From positions 124,001 to 188,000 of the forward strand of contig JANXOD010000008.1 in assembly GCA_025353765.1 (NCBI GenBank): DNA of 64,000 bases, given 5' to 3'. The position numbers and the translations under genes were made by a program. The notes under the pieces were generated by a model. That model saw nothing but the letters and a program-made list of their open reading frames with translations. It had not been told where the DNA came from and searched no databases. Positions 13,785 through 23,795 of this stretch are shown one piece after another. The first letter of the stretch is position 1. Each line of letters opens with the position of its first letter. Source of the stretch: Sphingobacteriales bacterium (lineage in GTDB: Bacteria; Bacteroidota; Bacteroidia; Sphingobacteriales; Sphingobacteriaceae).

Positions 13785-15080
13785 TTACTTGCTAATTTTT
13801 AATCTATTGCATATATCTTTCAAAATATGGCCAAATTCAAATACATCCATAAAGGTATTGTAAAACGGAACCGGACTAATTCGGATCACATCAGGTTCCC
13901 GCCAATCACCAATGACATGTTGTTTTACCAGTTCATCAAAAATGATTTTGCCATGCTTTTTCGCGATAATGGAAAGCTGGCATCCTCTTTCTTTGGCTGA
14001 TTTCGGAGTGATGATATGAAACTGTTTATAGCCGATGTGTTTATTGATGTCATTAATGATAAATTCCAAAAAATCAGTTAGTTGTATACTTTTTTTATTT
14101 AAAATATCCATACCTCCGGCTTCTTTAAATAATACTAATGAAGCCTTATGTGCCGCCATCATTAAAACCGGACTGCAACTTAATTGCCAACCTTCTGCAC
14201 CACGTTCGGGAACAAAACCTTTTGTCATTTTAAACCGGTTAGTGGCTTCATATCCCCACCATCCGGCAAAACGGTTTAGTTCTTTATTGTTAAAATGCTT
14301 TTCATGAATATACACTCCGCTAATTCCACCCGGACTACTATTCATATATTTATAAGTACACCAGCAGGCGAAATCAACATTCCAGTCATGAAGTTTAAGA
14401 GGAACATTTCCGGCAGCATGGGCCAGATCAAAGCCTACATAGGCACCGGCTTCGTGTCCTGCTTTAGTGATAGCCTCTAAATCGAAATATTGTCCGGTAT
14501 AATAATTTATGCCTCCAAACAGGACTAAAGCCAATTCATCGGCATGTTCATTGATCTTTGATAGAATATCTTCCGTGCGTAAAGTCTCTTCTCCTTTTCG
14601 GGGATGAATTTCAATAATGGCATCTTGTGGATCATAACCATGAAAGCGAATCTGGCTTTCTACCGCGTATTGATCGGATGGAAAAGCGCCACCTTCCATT
14701 AATATTTTATAGCGTTTATCTTTGGGGCGGTAAAAACTAACCATCATTAAATGAAGGTTTACCGTTAAATTATTCATCGGAATTACCTCTTCTGCTTTTG
14801 CTCCAACAATGGGAGCCATTAACTTTTGTAATTCTTTATGATAAAACATCCAGGGTGTTTCGCCTTCAAACCAACCTTCAACACCTAAGTTTTCCCAATT
14901 ATCTAATTGTTCCTGAATATATGTTTTAGTAGATTTTGGCTGAAGCCCTAATGAATTACCGCATAAATAGATGATTTGCTTGCCGTTTTGCTTCGGTATC
15001 AAAAATTCATCTCTAAATGAATGTAATGGGTCTGCCTGATCTTGCAGAAGGGCATATTCGCGGGTGTTTTGAAATGACAT
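13785..15080 (-). CDS. kynU: Kynureninase
   Basis: A 431-residue PLP enzyme that hydrolyses L-kynurenine to anthranilate and alanine (or 3-hydroxykynurenine to 3-hydroxyanthranilate for NAD synthesis). Landmarks are IYLCGNSLGLQPKSTKTYIQ, ITKAGHEAGAYVGFDLAHAA (Asp contacting the PLP ring) and NVDFACWCTYKYMNSSPGGI, where the Lys of Y-K-Y binds PLP. FAGWWGYEATNRFKMTKGFV is also typical. The frame is open to 15170, but I chose the ATG at 15080 (MSFQNTREYALLQDQADPL) because the extra 30 residues are hydrophobic junk outside the family and run toward the repeat array. No other kynurenine-pathway gene is in the window. Confidence 0.92.
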   Translation of the reverse strand: MSFQNTREYALLQDQADPLHSFRDEFLIPKQNGKQIIYLCGNSLGLQPKSTKTYIQEQLDNWENLGVEGWFEGETPWMFYHKELQKLMAPIVGAKAEEVIPMNNLTVNLHLMMVSFYRPKDKRYKILMEGGAFPSDQYAVESQIRFHGYDPQDAIIEIHPRKGEETLRTEDILSKINEHADELALVLFGGINYYTGQYFDLEAITKAGHEAGAYVGFDLAHAAGNVPLKLHDWNVDFACWCTYKYMNSSPGGISGVYIHEKHFNNKELNRFAGWWGYEATNRFKMTKGFVPERGAEGWQLSCSPVLMMAAHKASLVLFKEAGGMDILNKKSIQLTDFLEFIINDINKHIGYKQFHIITPKSAKERGCQLSIIAKKHGKIIFDELVKQHVIGDWREPDVIRISPVPFYNTFMDVFEFGHILKDICNRLKISK

Positions 15081-15188
15081 CTTCAATAATACAAAAAAAA
15101 TACATATCAAATGAGCGTCGCTTATGCTGAGATAAATGATTGATACAGATAGAGGAAACCGATAAGCCATGTGGTGAAATGATTTTTC

Positions 15189-15434
15189 TTGTCATTTCCA
15201 ACATTTTCTTTGTCATTTCAAACATTATCCTTGTCGTTTCCAATGTTTTCCTTATCGTTTCCAACGTTTTCCTTGTCGTTTTAATCATTTTCATTGTCGT
15301 TTCAGAGACTTTCCTTGTCGTTTCAGAAACTTTCTTTGTCGTTTCAAACGTTTTCCTTGTCGTTTCAGAGACTTTCCTTGTCGTTTCCAATGTTTTCCTT
15401 GTCGTTTCAATCATTTTCCTTGTCGTGGAAATGA
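15189..15434. repeat. 21-bp tandem array (11 units plus a partial) of TTGTCGTTTC-type
   Basis: Units of exactly 21 bp begin with TTGTC (or TTATC) at 15189, 15210, 15231, 15252, 15273, 15294, 15315, 15336, 15357, 15378 and 15399, with a partial unit at 15420. The core is TTGTCGTTTCnnANnnTTTC. The first half of each unit is conserved and the middle varies between CCAATG, CAGAGA, CAAACG and AATCAT. Read as protein it gives heptad patterns on both strands (..ETTRKTLETTRKVS.. on minus, ..FLVVSNVFLVVSE.. on plus), which follow from the 21-bp period and are not evidence of a gene. It lies in the gap between kynU and the stress protein. Confidence 0.9.
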
Positions 15435-15473
15435 TTTTGCTAATTTACATAGAGGCTATGTAAATTAGCAAAA
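15435..15473. repeat. Perfect 18-bp inverted repeat with 3-base loop at the array end
   Basis: The arm TTTTGCTAATTTACATAG (15435-15452) and its exact reverse complement (15456-15473) flank AGG. The right arm is nearly identical to unit type A of the array at 6.0-6.2 kb (CTATGTATATTAGCAAA). The sequence just after it, CAGGTATAGAAAAGAGCTTA, matches the right flank of that array. There is no T run, so it is not an intrinsic terminator. The remainder to 15603 holds nothing else recognisable. Confidence 0.85.
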
Positions 15474-18633: not shown

Positions 18634-19164
18634 ATGACAAAACAATTAATCTCCCCTCGGTTTATCGTATTAACCTTAATTGTAATTGCTGCTGCATTGA
18701 CCAGAGCTTTACCTTTATTGATCCCTCATATTTGGAATTTTACAGCAGTTGGAGCTTTGGCCATATTCTCGGGAGCTCAATTTAATAATAGAGGATTAGC
18801 TTTTGCAATGCCCTTAGCAGCAATGGCTTTATCTGATCTTTTTATTGGAAATGGATTTAGCCTTATAGTTTATAGTGGCTTTATTGCTATGGTTGCCTGC
18901 GGATTCCTAATCAGAAATAAAAAATCTGTTACTAATATTGTTTTGGGATCTATATCAGGTGCACTTGTTTTTTACCTGATTACCAATTTTTCATTCTTCT
19001 ATTCTGTATCCTTATATCCACGTAATTTAACTGGTATCATCACATCTTATACCATGGCCTTGCCTTTTCTAAATAATATGGTGGTTGGTAACCTGGTTTA
19101 TGGAACTGTTTTATTTGGTTCTTTTTATGTATTGCAAAAGCGTTATCCGGCATTAGCGGTTTAG
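18634..19164 (+). CDS. DUF6580 putative membrane transport protein
   Basis: A 176-residue inner-membrane protein with five to six predicted helices (FIVLTLIVIAAALTRALPLL; FTAVGALAIFSGAQFNN; LAAMALSDLFIGNGFSLIVY; SGALVFYLITNFSFFYSVSL; VGNLVYGTVLFGSFYVLQ). It matches DUF6580, whose layout resembles the substrate-binding S components of ECF vitamin transporters. It is convergent with the cobalamin operon at 19252-23111 and shares its bidirectional terminator, which makes a cobalamin- or corrinoid-related transport role a reasonable guess. It has no riboswitch of its own and no ECF A/A'/T subunits are nearby. Confidence 0.72.
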   Translation: MTKQLISPRFIVLTLIVIAAALTRALPLLIPHIWNFTAVGALAIFSGAQFNNRGLAFAMPLAAMALSDLFIGNGFSLIVYSGFIAMVACGFLIRNKKSVTNIVLGSISGALVFYLITNFSFFYSVSLYPRNLTGIITSYTMALPFLNNMVVGNLVYGTVLFGSFYVLQKRYPALAV

Positions 19165-19179
19165 AAACAAACTGCTTAT

Positions 19180-19216
19180 AAAAAAAGCTAAATGCATCAT
19201 GCATTTAGCTTTTTTT
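19180..19216. terminator. Bidirectional intrinsic terminator
   Basis: An 18-base arm AAAAAAAGCTAAATGCAT (19180-19197) pairs perfectly with 19199-19216 across a single C. The AGCTAAATGCAT stem is flanked by an A run on one side and a T run on the other, so it ends both the DUF6580 transcript (+) and the cobalamin operon (-). Confidence 0.9.
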
Positions 19217-19251: not shown

Positions 19252-19944
19252 TTATATGATATCAATATACCAGAAACCTGTTTGTTTTTCTTGTTCTTTT
19301 GTTTTTATCGCTAAGGGAGAAAACCGCCTTTCACCTAAATGGCAAGTTATTGGACTTTTAAATATAGGTCCGGCGAAGCAGAATGTATGAAACTCTCCAT
19401 TCTCACCACAGGCATCAACATGTAAAGGTAAATCTTGTATAAATTGAGTATTTATTTCTTTTCCTAGCCAATTTTCATCCAGGCAGGTAGTACTAATGCA
19501 GCAGGTAACTGTTTTAAATCCTAAATGAATAAATTCCTTAATCAAACTACCTGTTGACTTTTGCCATAACGGAAAATAGCCATTTAAGCCTGCTTCTTTC
19601 AATATCTGTTCACGATATGCTCTCAAATCTTCCAAGAAGATATCTCCAAAAATAACAGTGTCTATCCCGTCTCTTTTTAGCTGCTGATAAACTTCTCTCA
19701 AAACCCCTTCATAGGAAGCATTCGTTGGCTCATTTGGAACCCACATTTTTATTAAGGGAATTCCAATTTCGGCTACTTGTATATCCAGAATTTCCTCTCG
19801 TATGCCATGCATAGAAATGCGACAATACTCTTTATTGAGTGTACATATTAACGCCTTTATTTCAATCTCAGGATCTTGCTGTGCTCTATACAAAGCCAAT
19901 GCAGAATCTTTACCACCACTCCAAAATATAACTGATTGCTTCAT
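19252..19944 (-). CDS. COG2102/DUF71 ATP-PPase (diphthine-ammonia-ligase-like) in the cobalamin operon
   Basis: A 230-residue PP-loop ATP pyrophosphatase. The P-loop is SVIFWSGGKDSALALYRAQQ at the N-terminus. FGDIFLEDLRAYREQILKEA, NGYFPLWQKSTGSLIKEFI and DACGENGEFHTFCFAGPIF (with the family's G-E-x-G-E-F/Y-H-T-F motif) identify DUF71. The eukaryotic and archaeal branch amidates diphthine on EF-2, a modification bacteria lack. For the bacterial branch, comparative genomics has proposed a role in vitamin B12 salvage. The last position of the riboswitch-led operon here, behind a BtuB-like receptor and a BtuG-like lipoprotein, supports that. The exact reaction is unknown. Confidence 0.85.
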   Translation of the reverse strand: MKQSVIFWSGGKDSALALYRAQQDPEIEIKALICTLNKEYCRISMHGIREEILDIQVAEIGIPLIKMWVPNEPTNASYEGVLREVYQQLKRDGIDTVIFGDIFLEDLRAYREQILKEAGLNGYFPLWQKSTGSLIKEFIHLGFKTVTCCISTTCLDENWLGKEINTQFIQDLPLHVDACGENGEFHTFCFAGPIFKSPITCHLGERRFSPLAIKTKEQEKQTGFWYIDII

Positions 19945-20007
19945 TTAAACAAAAATAGCGATGCACATTTAAGTTCATCGCTGTTTTAAATATTTAGTAT
20001 TTTGATC

Positions 20008-21075
20008 TTATTTATTTATAAACACAACGTTGTTTGGATTTATACCTGTTGCAATAGAATATTTTTTATGCCCATCCTTATCGAAACAAAATACTTCACC
20101 ATTGCTTATATAATTCTTTGCATCTGTAATAAATACTTCACCGGTTAAATTATCTACAGCAACCCCGTAAGGAGAAGTAATCGTTGTTCCATCTGTTATA
20201 AAATCTTCTTTTTCTATAGTTTCTGTTTTTACGTTATATACTTTAACGTGGTCATAAGTTGATATGTATGCGAAATCATCTTTAATGATCATAGAGCCTC
20301 CATCAAAATCATTTTGTTTTTTAACCAGATCTGTTTTGCTGTCAATAATTGCCATACTTGCATTTATATCAGTATAATTACCTGAAGATAGAACATACAC
20401 ATCACCATATTGATCTGCTGCAACTCCACGAGGATTTACAACCACAGTAATTTTTTTTATTTCCGTTAAGGTATTCAAGTCAATCACAGATACTGTTTTA
20501 TCAGGGTTATTAAAATCAAGTCCGCCGGAATTGGCTACATATAATTTACCGTTTGCAATAGCCATTTGTTCGGGGTTACGGCCAACTGTAATGTATTTTT
20601 CAATAGTTAAAGATGTGGTATCCATAACAGCAACGGTACCGTCATAAGAAGAGATAAATGCTTTATTTTTGTTGAATACAATATATCGGGGCTGGCGGTC
20701 TTTTCCTGCATCATCCATTTTAATGTTTTTAATAGATGCAGCCGTTTTAGCATTTACTACTTCAATCGTACTCGAAACGTTGACGATAATGTACATTTTA
20801 GAACCATACACTTTTATATCATTTCCAGTATCGCCAAGTCCACGGTTATTTACTTTAGCAAATTGATCTTGGGTTAATATTTTACTATCATAATCATAAT
20901 AGGTTAAACTAGAATTGTTGCCATTAAAGCTGCCTTCACATAATACAAAAAGTCCCTTTCTTTCGGCTGTTAGTTGGGGGGAGGAAATTGGATCTTGTTT
21001 ATCTTTTCGGCAGGATGCAAACAACGTTACAAAAGTGAATGCTAAGAATAGGTAGTTAATTTTAAATTGTTTCAT
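20008..21075 (-). CDS. BtuG-like YncE/DUF5074 beta-propeller surface lipoprotein
   Basis: A 355-residue lipoprotein (lipobox LFASC, Cys about residue 22) with a seven-bladed propeller of YncE type. Repeated strands include GNDIKVYGSKMYIIVNVSST, KNKAFISSYDGTVAVMDTTS, NPEQMAIANGKLYVANSGGL, NPRGVAADQYGDVYVLSSGN and SPYGVAVDNLTGEVFITDA. In Bacteroides the equivalent protein next to BtuB (BtuG) is a surface lipoprotein that binds cobalamin very tightly and caps the receptor. Position 11 bases after the BtuB-like gene and behind a cobalamin riboswitch makes the same job likely here. Family and localisation are solid; cobalamin binding is inferred. Confidence 0.83.
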   Translation of the reverse strand: MKQFKINYLFLAFTFVTLFASCRKDKQDPISSPQLTAERKGLFVLCEGSFNGNNSSLTYYDYDSKILTQDQFAKVNNRGLGDTGNDIKVYGSKMYIIVNVSSTIEVVNAKTAASIKNIKMDDAGKDRQPRYIVFNKNKAFISSYDGTVAVMDTTSLTIEKYITVGRNPEQMAIANGKLYVANSGGLDFNNPDKTVSVIDLNTLTEIKKITVVVNPRGVAADQYGDVYVLSSGNYTDINASMAIIDSKTDLVKKQNDFDGGSMIIKDDFAYISTYDHVKVYNVKTETIEKEDFITDGTTITSPYGVAVDNLTGEVFITDAKNYISNGEVFCFDKDGHKKYSIATGINPNNVVFINK

Positions 21076-21086
21076 ATTTTATTTAT

Positions 21087-23111
21087 TTAAATGGTTATTT
21101 GAAAAGTGAATCTTACAGAACGTCCGGGCATCGGGAAACTCCGAATAATGGCATACGATTTATTAAATAGGTTATTAACCTCGGCTGAAGCCGTAGCCAG
21201 GAATTTATTTAAAGAGAATTTATAGGTTAATGAGGCATCACTAATTGAAAATCCGGGAACAAAATATTCTGGCAGATTTTGGCTTGTATAATAACGGGAT
21301 GAGCAATAAATTTGATTGTAATATAAACTTACACGTTCATCATTGATACCAGCATTAATTGCCAGAGTATGCTTTGGAGTATAAGGGATTTGATTTAAAT
21401 AAACTGATGATTTAGAATCAGTGACATCTAATGCTTCCTGGTAAGTATAGTTTCCGGATAATATTACTTTCCAGTTCTCTCCAAGTGGTGTCTGCGTTTT
21501 AAGACTTAAATCTAGTCCACGTATATCTACTTTTCCCAAATTAAACATACTCCATGTATTAATGTCTTTACTGGGAATAGCTATAATTTTGTCTTTTACA
21601 TTATTATAATAGATGTCAGTTGTTATAGTCGCATAATCTAGGATTTGGGTAAATGCTTTACTGAATGTAAATCCGATATTATATTGTTCAGCAAATTCAG
21701 GCTTTAGTGTACGTATGCCAACATTGGTATAATACAAATCATTAAATGTAGGAATGCGATAAATATCCTTATAAAAAGCTCTTAATTGAAAATCAGGATT
21801 AGTAAAAGGTTCTATGGTCAGCATGAAGGTTGGAGAATAAATAGATTTTGAAGGGGCTGCCTTTCCCTTTTTTACCCATTCATTTATTCGGGTATTTAAA
21901 ATATTCCCTTGTACATTAAGTCTGCCTAATTTTAATGCACCTGCAAAAACATTCAACCAAGTAAACCTAATGGGGTAAGCATAATTGCTTTGATTTGTAC
22001 TTAAATCATTCAAGGAAATATCAGAAGCATATGAAAGTTCCAGGTTGGGATATACTTTATAAGATAAAGCTGCCGATTGATAATATTCATGCTGTGTATA
22101 ACGCTGATCTAATTCACCTTGCTGATTTAAAAAATCAGGATCCAGGTAACGGATATAATTTTGAGAAACTTTCGTATTTAATAAAAGATGAAGCCCATTT
22201 ACCCATTTCTTATCATAACCGGTTTGTAAAAACACATCTTTATTCCACAAACGCTGATTGGAGGAAGAACTGTAAAAGATAATTGCACCCGGCAAGCCTT
22301 GTTCAGAATTATAGTAGTTAATTCTAAAGCTTAGCTTGTTACTGTCATCTTTAGCCCAAAATAAGGATGCATCTGTTCCAAAAGAAGTGATATCACCGTT
22401 CTTACGTATAGTCAACGTATCCGAACCATCTCCATCTACTTTATATTTATACTTGCCAGTTGCATTTTGCCAGTTACCATTCACAACCATTGACCAACTT
22501 TCGGCAAGCTTCTGTTGCCATTGTAAGGAAGGATTAATTAAACCAAAAGATCCCCCCTTAATAGTAGCTTTTATTTGATAGGGCTTATTGGAATTTAGCT
22601 GTGGATGAATAGTTTTAATAGCCAATACACTAGCAAATGCATAGGTTCTTGCAGGCTGACATATTTCTGCAGGCTGACCATTATATAAAATGATTTCCTG
22701 CACATCATCTAAACTTAATTTTCCAAGATCAATCTGGCCATTCTGTGCATCATTTATTTGAACGCCATCATATAAAACACCTGTATGATTCTCTCCCAAA
22801 CTGCGTACAGATACTGTCTTTAATCCACCTATACCACCATAATCTTTAATATTTACGCCAGAAAAGTTGTGAATAGCATCTGCTACTGAATTAGCATTGT
22901 ACCGCTTAAAATCACTTGCTGAAACTTGTTGCGTTGGGATTAGCGTTTTTACTTTTGGGATAGGAGTAGAGAATACCTTTACTTCTCTGAGTTGGGTAGT
23001 ATCTGTTTGAGCCAAAAGTTTTCCTGAAAACAAAAAAATAATCAACCCTACGATTAAGAATCGATGGCGATAGAATAAGCTATAAGAGTTAAATAGTAAT
23101 ATAAATAGCAT
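21087..23111 (-). CDS. btuB: TonB-dependent cobalamin receptor (BtuB-like)
   Basis: A 674-residue outer-membrane receptor. It has an N-terminal signal/TM (FLIVGLIIFLFSGKLLAQ, cleavage about residue 35), then a short TonB-box-like TDTTQLREVKVFSTP and a plug domain (NANSVADAIHNFSGVNIKDYG, GGLKTVSVRSLGENHTGVLY, NGQIDLGKLSLDDVQEIILYN). A beta-barrel follows, ending in an aromatic C-terminus (RSVRFTFQITI). It would import cobalamin with TonB energy. The cobalamin riboswitch upstream at 23222-23390 fixes the likely ligand. It is the first gene of the operon btuB-like, btuG-like, DUF71. BtuCDF inner-membrane genes are not in this window. Confidence 0.9.
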   Translation of the reverse strand: MLFILLFNSYSLFYRHRFLIVGLIIFLFSGKLLAQTDTTQLREVKVFSTPIPKVKTLIPTQQVSASDFKRYNANSVADAIHNFSGVNIKDYGGIGGLKTVSVRSLGENHTGVLYDGVQINDAQNGQIDLGKLSLDDVQEIILYNGQPAEICQPARTYAFASVLAIKTIHPQLNSNKPYQIKATIKGGSFGLINPSLQWQQKLAESWSMVVNGNWQNATGKYKYKVDGDGSDTLTIRKNGDITSFGTDASLFWAKDDSNKLSFRINYYNSEQGLPGAIIFYSSSSNQRLWNKDVFLQTGYDKKWVNGLHLLLNTKVSQNYIRYLDPDFLNQQGELDQRYTQHEYYQSAALSYKVYPNLELSYASDISLNDLSTNQSNYAYPIRFTWLNVFAGALKLGRLNVQGNILNTRINEWVKKGKAAPSKSIYSPTFMLTIEPFTNPDFQLRAFYKDIYRIPTFNDLYYTNVGIRTLKPEFAEQYNIGFTFSKAFTQILDYATITTDIYYNNVKDKIIAIPSKDINTWSMFNLGKVDIRGLDLSLKTQTPLGENWKVILSGNYTYQEALDVTDSKSSVYLNQIPYTPKHTLAINAGINDERVSLYYNQIYCSSRYYTSQNLPEYFVPGFSISDASLTYKFSLNKFLATASAEVNNLFNKSYAIIRSFPMPGRSVRFTFQITI

Positions 23112-23221
23112 CCATTGTGAATCTTTTCACAGCAAACAGATTATGAAGAATACTATAAATGGCCCGGATAAAAAATGCGGATCACTCAAGCTTCAATCCC
23201 CGAAAGCTATGAATTATGTAA

Positions 23222-23390
23222 TGCTCTGGCAGGTCTTCTGACTTACTCCCCTTGAATCCTGTCTTCCCGCCTTTTTTAATTGACAGTGACTAAAGAATGG
23301 ACCTCGGTTAAGGAGCTTACAGCTGCGGGACAGTTACGGATTTACACCATATTCCCTTTTAATCCTGATAATGATATCAGGAACCTAAAG
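23222..23390 (-). promoter_or_regulatory. Class-I cobalamin riboswitch (B12 element)
   Basis: Reading the minus strand there is a CCTGATA/TATCAGG hairpin (23381-23364), then GGGAATATGGTGTAAATCC and AACTGTCCCGCAGCTGTAA (23327-23318 is GCAGCTGTAA), later GTCACTG and GGCGGGAAGACAGGATTC, and the B12 box AGTCAGAAGACCTGCC (23243-23228). This order and wording is that of adenosylcobalamin-type riboswitches. It lies 110 bases upstream of the btuB-like ATG, so bound cobalamin should turn the operon down. The gap 23112-23221 has no obvious T run, so control of translation start is more likely than termination. Confidence 0.95.
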
Positions 23391-23763
23391 CAATGCAAAG
23401 GTAATAGAAGATTAATTAATTGCAAGCAATTTTAAAATGCACCGTAGACTTTACTATAATTAGGAATCGGCTATACTCTTATAATCTAAATTTACTATTT
23501 ATACAAAAAGTAAAGCCTTTTGAACTAATTAAAAAGGCTTCTACTACTATTCAGATAGAAATAGGGTCTTAATACTTATTGTAATAATGCTTAAACCCCT
23601 GAAATTGTTTTTTAATTAAATAAAATTTACCAATCATGAAGAATTTTTTAATGAAATAGAATAATAAATAAAAATCAATAATAAATAAAAATAAAGTATT
23701 ATTGCTGACATATTTATCATTGTTTTGTATCCGCCCCAAAAGGATATATTTCAAAGACAAATG
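23391..23763. other. Gene-free AT-rich region upstream of the riboswitch
   Basis: It should contain the promoter of the cobalamin operon at its left end. An AAGCCTTTT / AAAAGGCTT pairing at about 23513-23540 could form a hairpin. A 63-codon minus-strand frame (23569-23760) is dominated by Phe, Tyr, Lys, Ile and Asn codons of the AT-rich background and has no homologue I recognise, so I do not call it. Confidence 0.5.
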
Positions 23764-23795
23764 AAGGTCGAATATTTATATTCGACCTTGTTTTT
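23764..23795 (+). terminator. Intrinsic terminator-like hairpin with no + strand gene upstream
   Basis: AAGGTCGAATA (23764-23774) and TATTCGACCTT (23779-23789) form an 11-bp stem around TTTA, followed by GTTTTT on the plus strand. The gene on its right (aldose epimerase, minus) ends at 23837, so the hairpin could end that transcript, although the T run is on the opposite strand. No plus-strand gene precedes it. Confidence 0.6.

Follow-up and report, generated by a model that had tools for sequence, protein, structure and literature searches.

A DUF71 ATP pyrophosphatase gene in a riboswitch–BtuB–BtuG locus of a Sphingobacteriales bacterium, and what B12 gene content says about its reaction

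A connection between one subgroup of DUF71 proteins, called DUF71-B12, and vitamin B12 was predicted in 2012 by de Crecy-Lagard et al. (PMC3541065). The subgroup is defined by the signature ENGE[FY]H, which stands in place of the EGGExE motif of Dph6. The 2012 survey found that most genomes with CbiB possessed one of the two, CbiZ or DUF71-B12; of its 102 DUF71-B12 genes, 18 adjoined cbiB (PMC3541065). The proposal was that DUF71-B12 is the functional equivalent of the amidohydrolase CbiZ. Specifically, adenosyl-pseudo-B12 would be cleaved or remodelled to adenosylcobyric acid, from which CbiB and the nucleotide-loop enzymes would rebuild cobalamin. The words “riboswitch” and “BtuB” do not occur in the main text of that paper, and linkage of this kind is not discussed there. 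Our literature search found no work on the reaction after 2012, and neither biochemistry nor genetics for any DUF71-B12 enzyme.

On the uptake side, the closest described system is the BtuB1–BtuG1 complex of Bacteroides thetaiotaomicron (PDB 8BLW, PMC10404256), specified by adjacent btuB and btuG genes under a cobalamin riboswitch. Here, we analyze a 64 kb stretch of a Sphingobacteriales genome (the window) in which a DUF71 gene lies behind a locus of the same kind. The B12 link of this DUF71 group is the 2012 prediction, of which the window gene is a new, clear member. What is new is the constraint that Bacteroidia gene content places on the DUF71-B12 reaction.

A B12-uptake locus ending in DUF71

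The original prediction placed a cobalamin riboswitch, an outer-membrane receptor, a BtuG-like surface propeller, and a DUF71 enzyme on one transcript. All four elements are present, in the order claimed, on the minus strand, separated by gaps of approximately 100, 11, and 63 bases. The riboswitch aptamer (RF00174; 23211..23404) scores 109.5 bits (E 1.6e-26) over the full model, positions 1-189, against a gathering score of 31.5 bits, and it is the sole RNA family match within the window. The receptor gene (21087..23111) encodes a BtuB-type TonB-dependent B12 receptor with plug and barrel, whose best solved relative is BtuB1 of B. thetaiotaomicron (8blw_A, E 8e-151). The propeller gene (20008..21075) encodes a BtuG-type B12-binding surface lipoprotein, a DUF5074 beta-propeller (PF16819, E 2.4e-18) with a lipoprotein-type signal (lipobox LFASC). 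Its best solved relative is BtuG1 (8blw_B, E 4.6e-81). This adjacent pair of TonB receptor and DUF5074 lipoprotein, homologous to solved BtuB–BtuG complexes, belongs with them. Two features distinguish the locus from its B. thetaiotaomicron counterpart: the window BtuG, at 355 amino acids, is too short to accommodate the extra BtuH domain of BtuG1, and btuG is followed by the gene for a DUF71/COG2102 PP-loop ATP pyrophosphatase (19252..19944, minus strand; PF01902, E 1.7e-40).

The claim of a single transcript is insecure in the window. Specifically, the 63-base gap between btuG and DUF71 contains the inverted repeat AGCGATG, 12 bases, CATCGCT, followed by the T-run in ATTTTTGT (19982..19957, minus strand), and this terminator-like hairpin lies just 12 bases ahead of the start codon of DUF71. 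The folding energy of the gap is -13.8 kcal/mol, compared to -6.3 (SD 2.2) for shuffled sequences (z -3.5). Scanning the minus strand of the window for inverted repeats with T-runs gave 19 matches, overlaps counted, versus 0-1 in each of three shuffles. Hairpins with T-runs also precede DUF71 in L032, which is from the window's genus, and in L047 and L059. Given the hairpin, the window DUF71 gene is probably reached via partial read-through or expressed separately from btuB and btuG. In other genomes, DUF71 begins inside the B12 gene ahead of it, with an overlap of 1-8 bases (e.g., L036, L038, L039, L043, L060, L066, L070, and L083). These overlaps make the DUF71–B12 operon link sound, and cotranscription in those genomes, as predicted from gene arrangement, is well supported.

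Downstream, a second, perfectly palindromic terminator-like hairpin (19180..19216; 17-pair stem, z -4.6) is common to DUF71 and a convergent gene for a DUF6580 membrane protein (18634..19164, plus strand), whose tie to the locus is one of association. Further terminator-like inverted repeats lie upstream of the riboswitch at 23513-23540 and 23764-23789. Elsewhere in the window, an open reading frame at 17327-18058 matches spheroidene monooxygenase (NF045923) below threshold, at 193 of 300 bits, as well as DUF3291, and ETTRK-type repeat units at 15013-15463, open in both directions, overlap the start of a kynureninase-like open reading frame.

A predicted Dph6-like fold with a different catalytic loop

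PF01902 and database names suggest Dph6, the diphthine-ammonia ligase, for the window protein, and family and fold agree with that name. The AlphaFold model (pLDDT 96) finds its best solved folds in the Dph6 proteins PH1257 (2d13, Z 25.5) and PF0828 (3rk1, Z 24.8), over approximately 200 residues. Both Dph6 and the window protein have the two-domain fold and the ATP-binding SGGKD, His46, and Gln56. Against the name, the Dph6 model TIGR03679 gives the window protein 94.8 bits, far under its cut-off of 197.3; Glu188 of the Dph6 EGGExE motif, which we take to be catalytic, is replaced by His186; and diphthamide is, to our knowledge, absent from bacteria. We consider it next to inconceivable that the protein is Dph6. 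Lower-ranked fold matches to argininosuccinate synthase, GMP synthetase, LarE, and QueC (Z ~10-12) reflect the shared PP-loop domain only.

With the DUF71-B12 subgroup (PMC3541065), the window gene shares the PP-loop, the GENGE[FY]H[TS] signature, a B12 gene neighborhood, and the fold. Its SGGKDS loop spans residues 9-14, and DACGENGEFHT, containing the subgroup signature, spans residues 177-187. Among aligned Bacteroidia members, D177 occurs in 66 of 66, C179 in 65 of 66, and H186 in 66 of 66, whereas the equivalent residues are H, A, and E in both PF0828 and PH1257. The window protein also has D101 instead of a Dph6 Ala. In other phyla, members were found by the GEnGEyH part only, with D and C outside the search pattern; D and C nonetheless hold in most of them, and C in all but two. 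The exchange of Dph6 Glu188 for His, plus the added Cys and Asp, may signify a chemistry different from that of Dph6.

A tree was built from 122 proteins, in which members from the class were combined with those of other phyla. The window gene falls in a clade, here type A, with an SH-aLRT of 100 and 45 entries, almost all from Bacteroidota. A second clade, type B (support 100, 23 entries), is embedded in sequences from Clostridia and Burkholderiales, and a third, of 4 entries, is separate. In contrast to the 2012 subgroup, the window gene sits in its own well-supported, mostly Bacteroidota clade, whose members occur in genomes that have neither CbiB nor CbiZ and mostly lack CobS. The original prediction that the enzyme is no diphthamide ligase but belongs to a B12-linked DUF71 group is supported by the signature motif, the operon context, and the 24 riboswitch loci described below. 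The PF01902 domain, the Dph6-like two-domain fold, and the adjoining B12 transport genes all place the protein in DUF71-B12; CbiB co-occurrence, a distribution pattern from 2012 and no strict definition, is lacking from the DUF71 genomes of the class, the window's included.

B12 gene content and candidate reactions

To survey the class, we used 178 Bacteroidia genomes drawn evenly across it, 61 of which encode DUF71. Genes were sought family by family, with built-in controls that found the families in reference genomes. Across the sample, the number of genomes is 4 for CbiB, 0 for CbiZ, 11 for CobS, 8 for CobU (above cut-off), 1 for BtuR, 173 for PduO, and 159 for the MetH activation domain. 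CbiB and CbiZ are absent from all 61 DUF71 genomes, of which 57 lack CobS and 4 have CobS together with CobU (G056, G062, G095, and G175). In the window genome, which is 99.8% complete in 44 contigs, searches for CbiB, CbiZ, CobS, CobU, and BtuR found none of them, while PduO, MetH, and methylmalonyl-CoA mutases are present. The window bacterium is B12-dependent and makes no B12 of its own. DUF71 as a replacement adenosyltransferase was rejected, since PduO is present in nearly all of these genomes, including the window's.

How do these data bear on the notion that DUF71-B12 replaces CbiZ? Beyond the 2012 distribution, a strong CbiB match occurs in 23 of 50 DUF71-B12 genomes outside Bacteroidota, many of the others being incomplete assemblies, and type B genes in Bacteroidota stand beside CobU, CobT, and CobS. 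However, in the present class, the few CbiB genomes have no DUF71, and all four also lack CbiZ. The 2012 rule therefore breaks down whichever way it is read; nor does the window genome supply any downstream enzyme. With CbiB, CbiZ, and the nucleotide-loop enzymes missing, the 2012 mechanism cannot, judged by gene content, apply in this lineage, unless unrelated enzymes replace all later steps. CbiZ replacement is contradicted for type A in the class and is possible outside Bacteroidota; as an account of the window gene, we rate it highly improbable.

The same gene content suggests what the reaction should deliver. Because no nucleotide-loop or cobyric-acid enzymes are present, the DUF71 product must be usable directly after PduO. 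Relatives of Dph6 adenylate a carboxylate, which ammonia then attacks. For a member of a carboxylate-adenylating family with a directly usable product, amidation of a corrin carboxylate is the simplest fit. Our best explanation, which we favor tentatively and at less than even confidence, is that this is a B12-uptake locus whose last gene, a type A DUF71, re-amidates imported corrinoids. In this scheme, low B12 would open the riboswitch, and BtuB and BtuG, by homology, would capture and import cobamides. The DUF71 protein, a predicted Dph6-fold ATP pyrophosphatase with D177, C179, and H186 in place of the Dph6 H, A, and E, would then use ATP, releasing AMP and PPi, to amidate a free carboxylate of an imported corrinoid that is complete in all other respects. 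The step would amount to repair of corrin side chains hydrolyzed in the environment, and following adenosylation by PduO, the product could serve MetH and the mutase directly. The locus anatomy, family, motif, predicted fold, and gene content are observed; that the substrate is a corrinoid we infer; and the amidation itself is a guess. The original prediction had offered amidation of a corrinoid or a side chain as an example, and gene content suits this idea better than it suits CbiZ replacement. Our literature search found nothing on bacterial repair of corrin amides.

Alternatively, type A DUF71 could process the imported corrinoid in some other ATP-dependent manner, for example by nucleotidyl tagging for retention or by upper-ligand or redox chemistry via the conserved Cys, His, and Asp. 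These three residues, which hardly vary within the B12 group but do not occur in Dph6, speak for such a role, as does linkage to uptake genes, and a reaction that needs no downstream enzymes is compatible with the gene content. Nonetheless, we know of no PP-loop enzyme that performs any of these steps, and adenosylation is already provided by PduO. We regard this alternative as rather unlikely.

The Bacteroidia distribution removes the leading proposal for the lineage, and the reactions that remain give a directly usable product, which reduces the number of candidate substrates. If side-chain repair is correct, bacteria unable to build B12 could use damaged B12, which would add a new layer to microbial competition for the vitamin.

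Recurrence, clades, and divergent groups

The 66 loci examined from the class contain 67 DUF71 genes. In 25 of the 67 (24 loci), a cobalamin riboswitch lies upstream in the locus, versus approximately 0.3 expected by random placement, an expectation that ignores kinship. Riboswitch linkage is spread over many families; on the tree, it was gained or lost at least 12 times, under a slightly wider definition than the one used for this count. The commonest DUF71 neighbors in the class are BtuB, DUF6580, BtuG, and BtuF. In other phyla, the commonest immediate neighbors are BtuC/BtuD, CbiA/CbiP-type amidotransferases, CobT, CobU, CobA, and BtuF.

Approximately 60% of DUF71 genes in the class lie away from any riboswitch, so DUF71 may have a wider role. 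An Rfam scan of 41 DUF71 loci with no obvious riboswitch found none in 38 of them; 37 scanned loci have no cobalamin riboswitch, and most of these have no B12 gene nearby either. According to the original prediction, DUF71 should not be common in genomes that lack all B12 uptake. A cobalamin riboswitch is indeed present in 54 of the 61 DUF71 genomes, but it is also present in 106 of the 117 genomes without DUF71, and the comparison does not discriminate. Moreover, 3 of the 61 (G108, G121, and G137) lack riboswitch, MetH, and mutase, although all three possess PduO. Tests of presence and absence against DUF71 showed no association for the riboswitch (p 0.79), CobS (p 1.0), CbiB (p 0.30), or MetH (p 0.21), and these statistics carry no information, since almost the whole class depends on B12. 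Two thirds of the genomes that share the B12 lifestyle have no DUF71, so the gene is not essential to uptake; this patchy, accessory distribution fits side-chain repair.

A further idea is that the substrate is no corrinoid: DUF71 would amidate another metabolite, RNA, or protein that is needed more when B12 is scarce, and the shared locus would reflect regulation only. The unlinked majority, the three genomes with neither MetH nor mutase, and the hairpin that parts DUF71 from btuG in the window all suit this idea. So do divergent members. Specifically, the seven DUF71 genomes without a riboswitch belong to two divergent groups, f41 and f49, both lacking MetH, in which the motif is mostly GE[RW]GEFH. 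The f41 DUF71 gene is part of a carotenoid cluster with squalene/phytoene synthase, two amine oxidases, and photolyase, the end of which it overlaps (L051:765-6066 and L063:5122-10419). In f49, it adjoins GTP cyclohydrolase I (L056). Three genomes that have neither riboswitch nor MetH (L056:4745-6705, L067, and L079) have DUF71 between this gene and one for a CCG cysteine-rich protein. The f41 and f49 proteins may have another function. Arguing against a noncorrinoid substrate are the DUF71 neighbors across phyla, among them BtuCD, BtuF, CobU, CobT, CobA, and the CbiA/CbiP-type genes; the PduO retained in the three genomes; and the recurrence of two DUF71 clades in the same Bacteroidota B12 loci, which regulation alone hardly explains. 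Overall, we think a noncorrinoid substrate improbable, though by no means negligible.

Types A and B occur together in single loci (L103, L107, L111, L112, L113, L114, L115, and L130), and type B genes adjoin CobU–CobT–CobS in several genomes (e.g., L054, L095, L097, L098, L100, and L112). Side-by-side occurrence suggests two B12-related substrates or steps and offers biochemists a within-genome comparison. We speculate, with considerable doubt, that type A is a corrinoid repair ligase for scavenged cobamides and that type B, beside CobU, carries out a related step on incomplete corrinoids. At L090:3233-4662, two different DUF71 genes stand in tandem behind one riboswitch, and an Omnitrophota record (L128) also has two DUF71 types.

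Gene fusions were sought as a clue to substrate: longer open reading frames at L120 and L141 have no second Pfam domain, and a DUF559 endonuclease-like N-terminus at L065 is of doubtful reality. Several neighbors recur. In four genomes of the window's family that lack CobS and CobU, the riboswitch/BtuB operon includes a Sir2-type gene (PF02146) immediately next to DUF71 (L032, 4764-5459; L033; L034; and L035). DUF6580, which is not mentioned in the literature we searched, stands beside DUF71 and other B12 genes in 15 of 66 loci by clustering (among them the window, L033, L034, L040, L045, L047, L058, L059, L077, L081, L088, and L090). It is often inside the B12 operon in other genomes, whereas it is convergent in the window. 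Finally, B12 operons from several families encode, close to BtuB/BtuG, DUF4465 proteins, described as a B12-binding family (PMC13398666), and other proteins with secretion-tail domains (L039, 8351-9322; L048; and L087).
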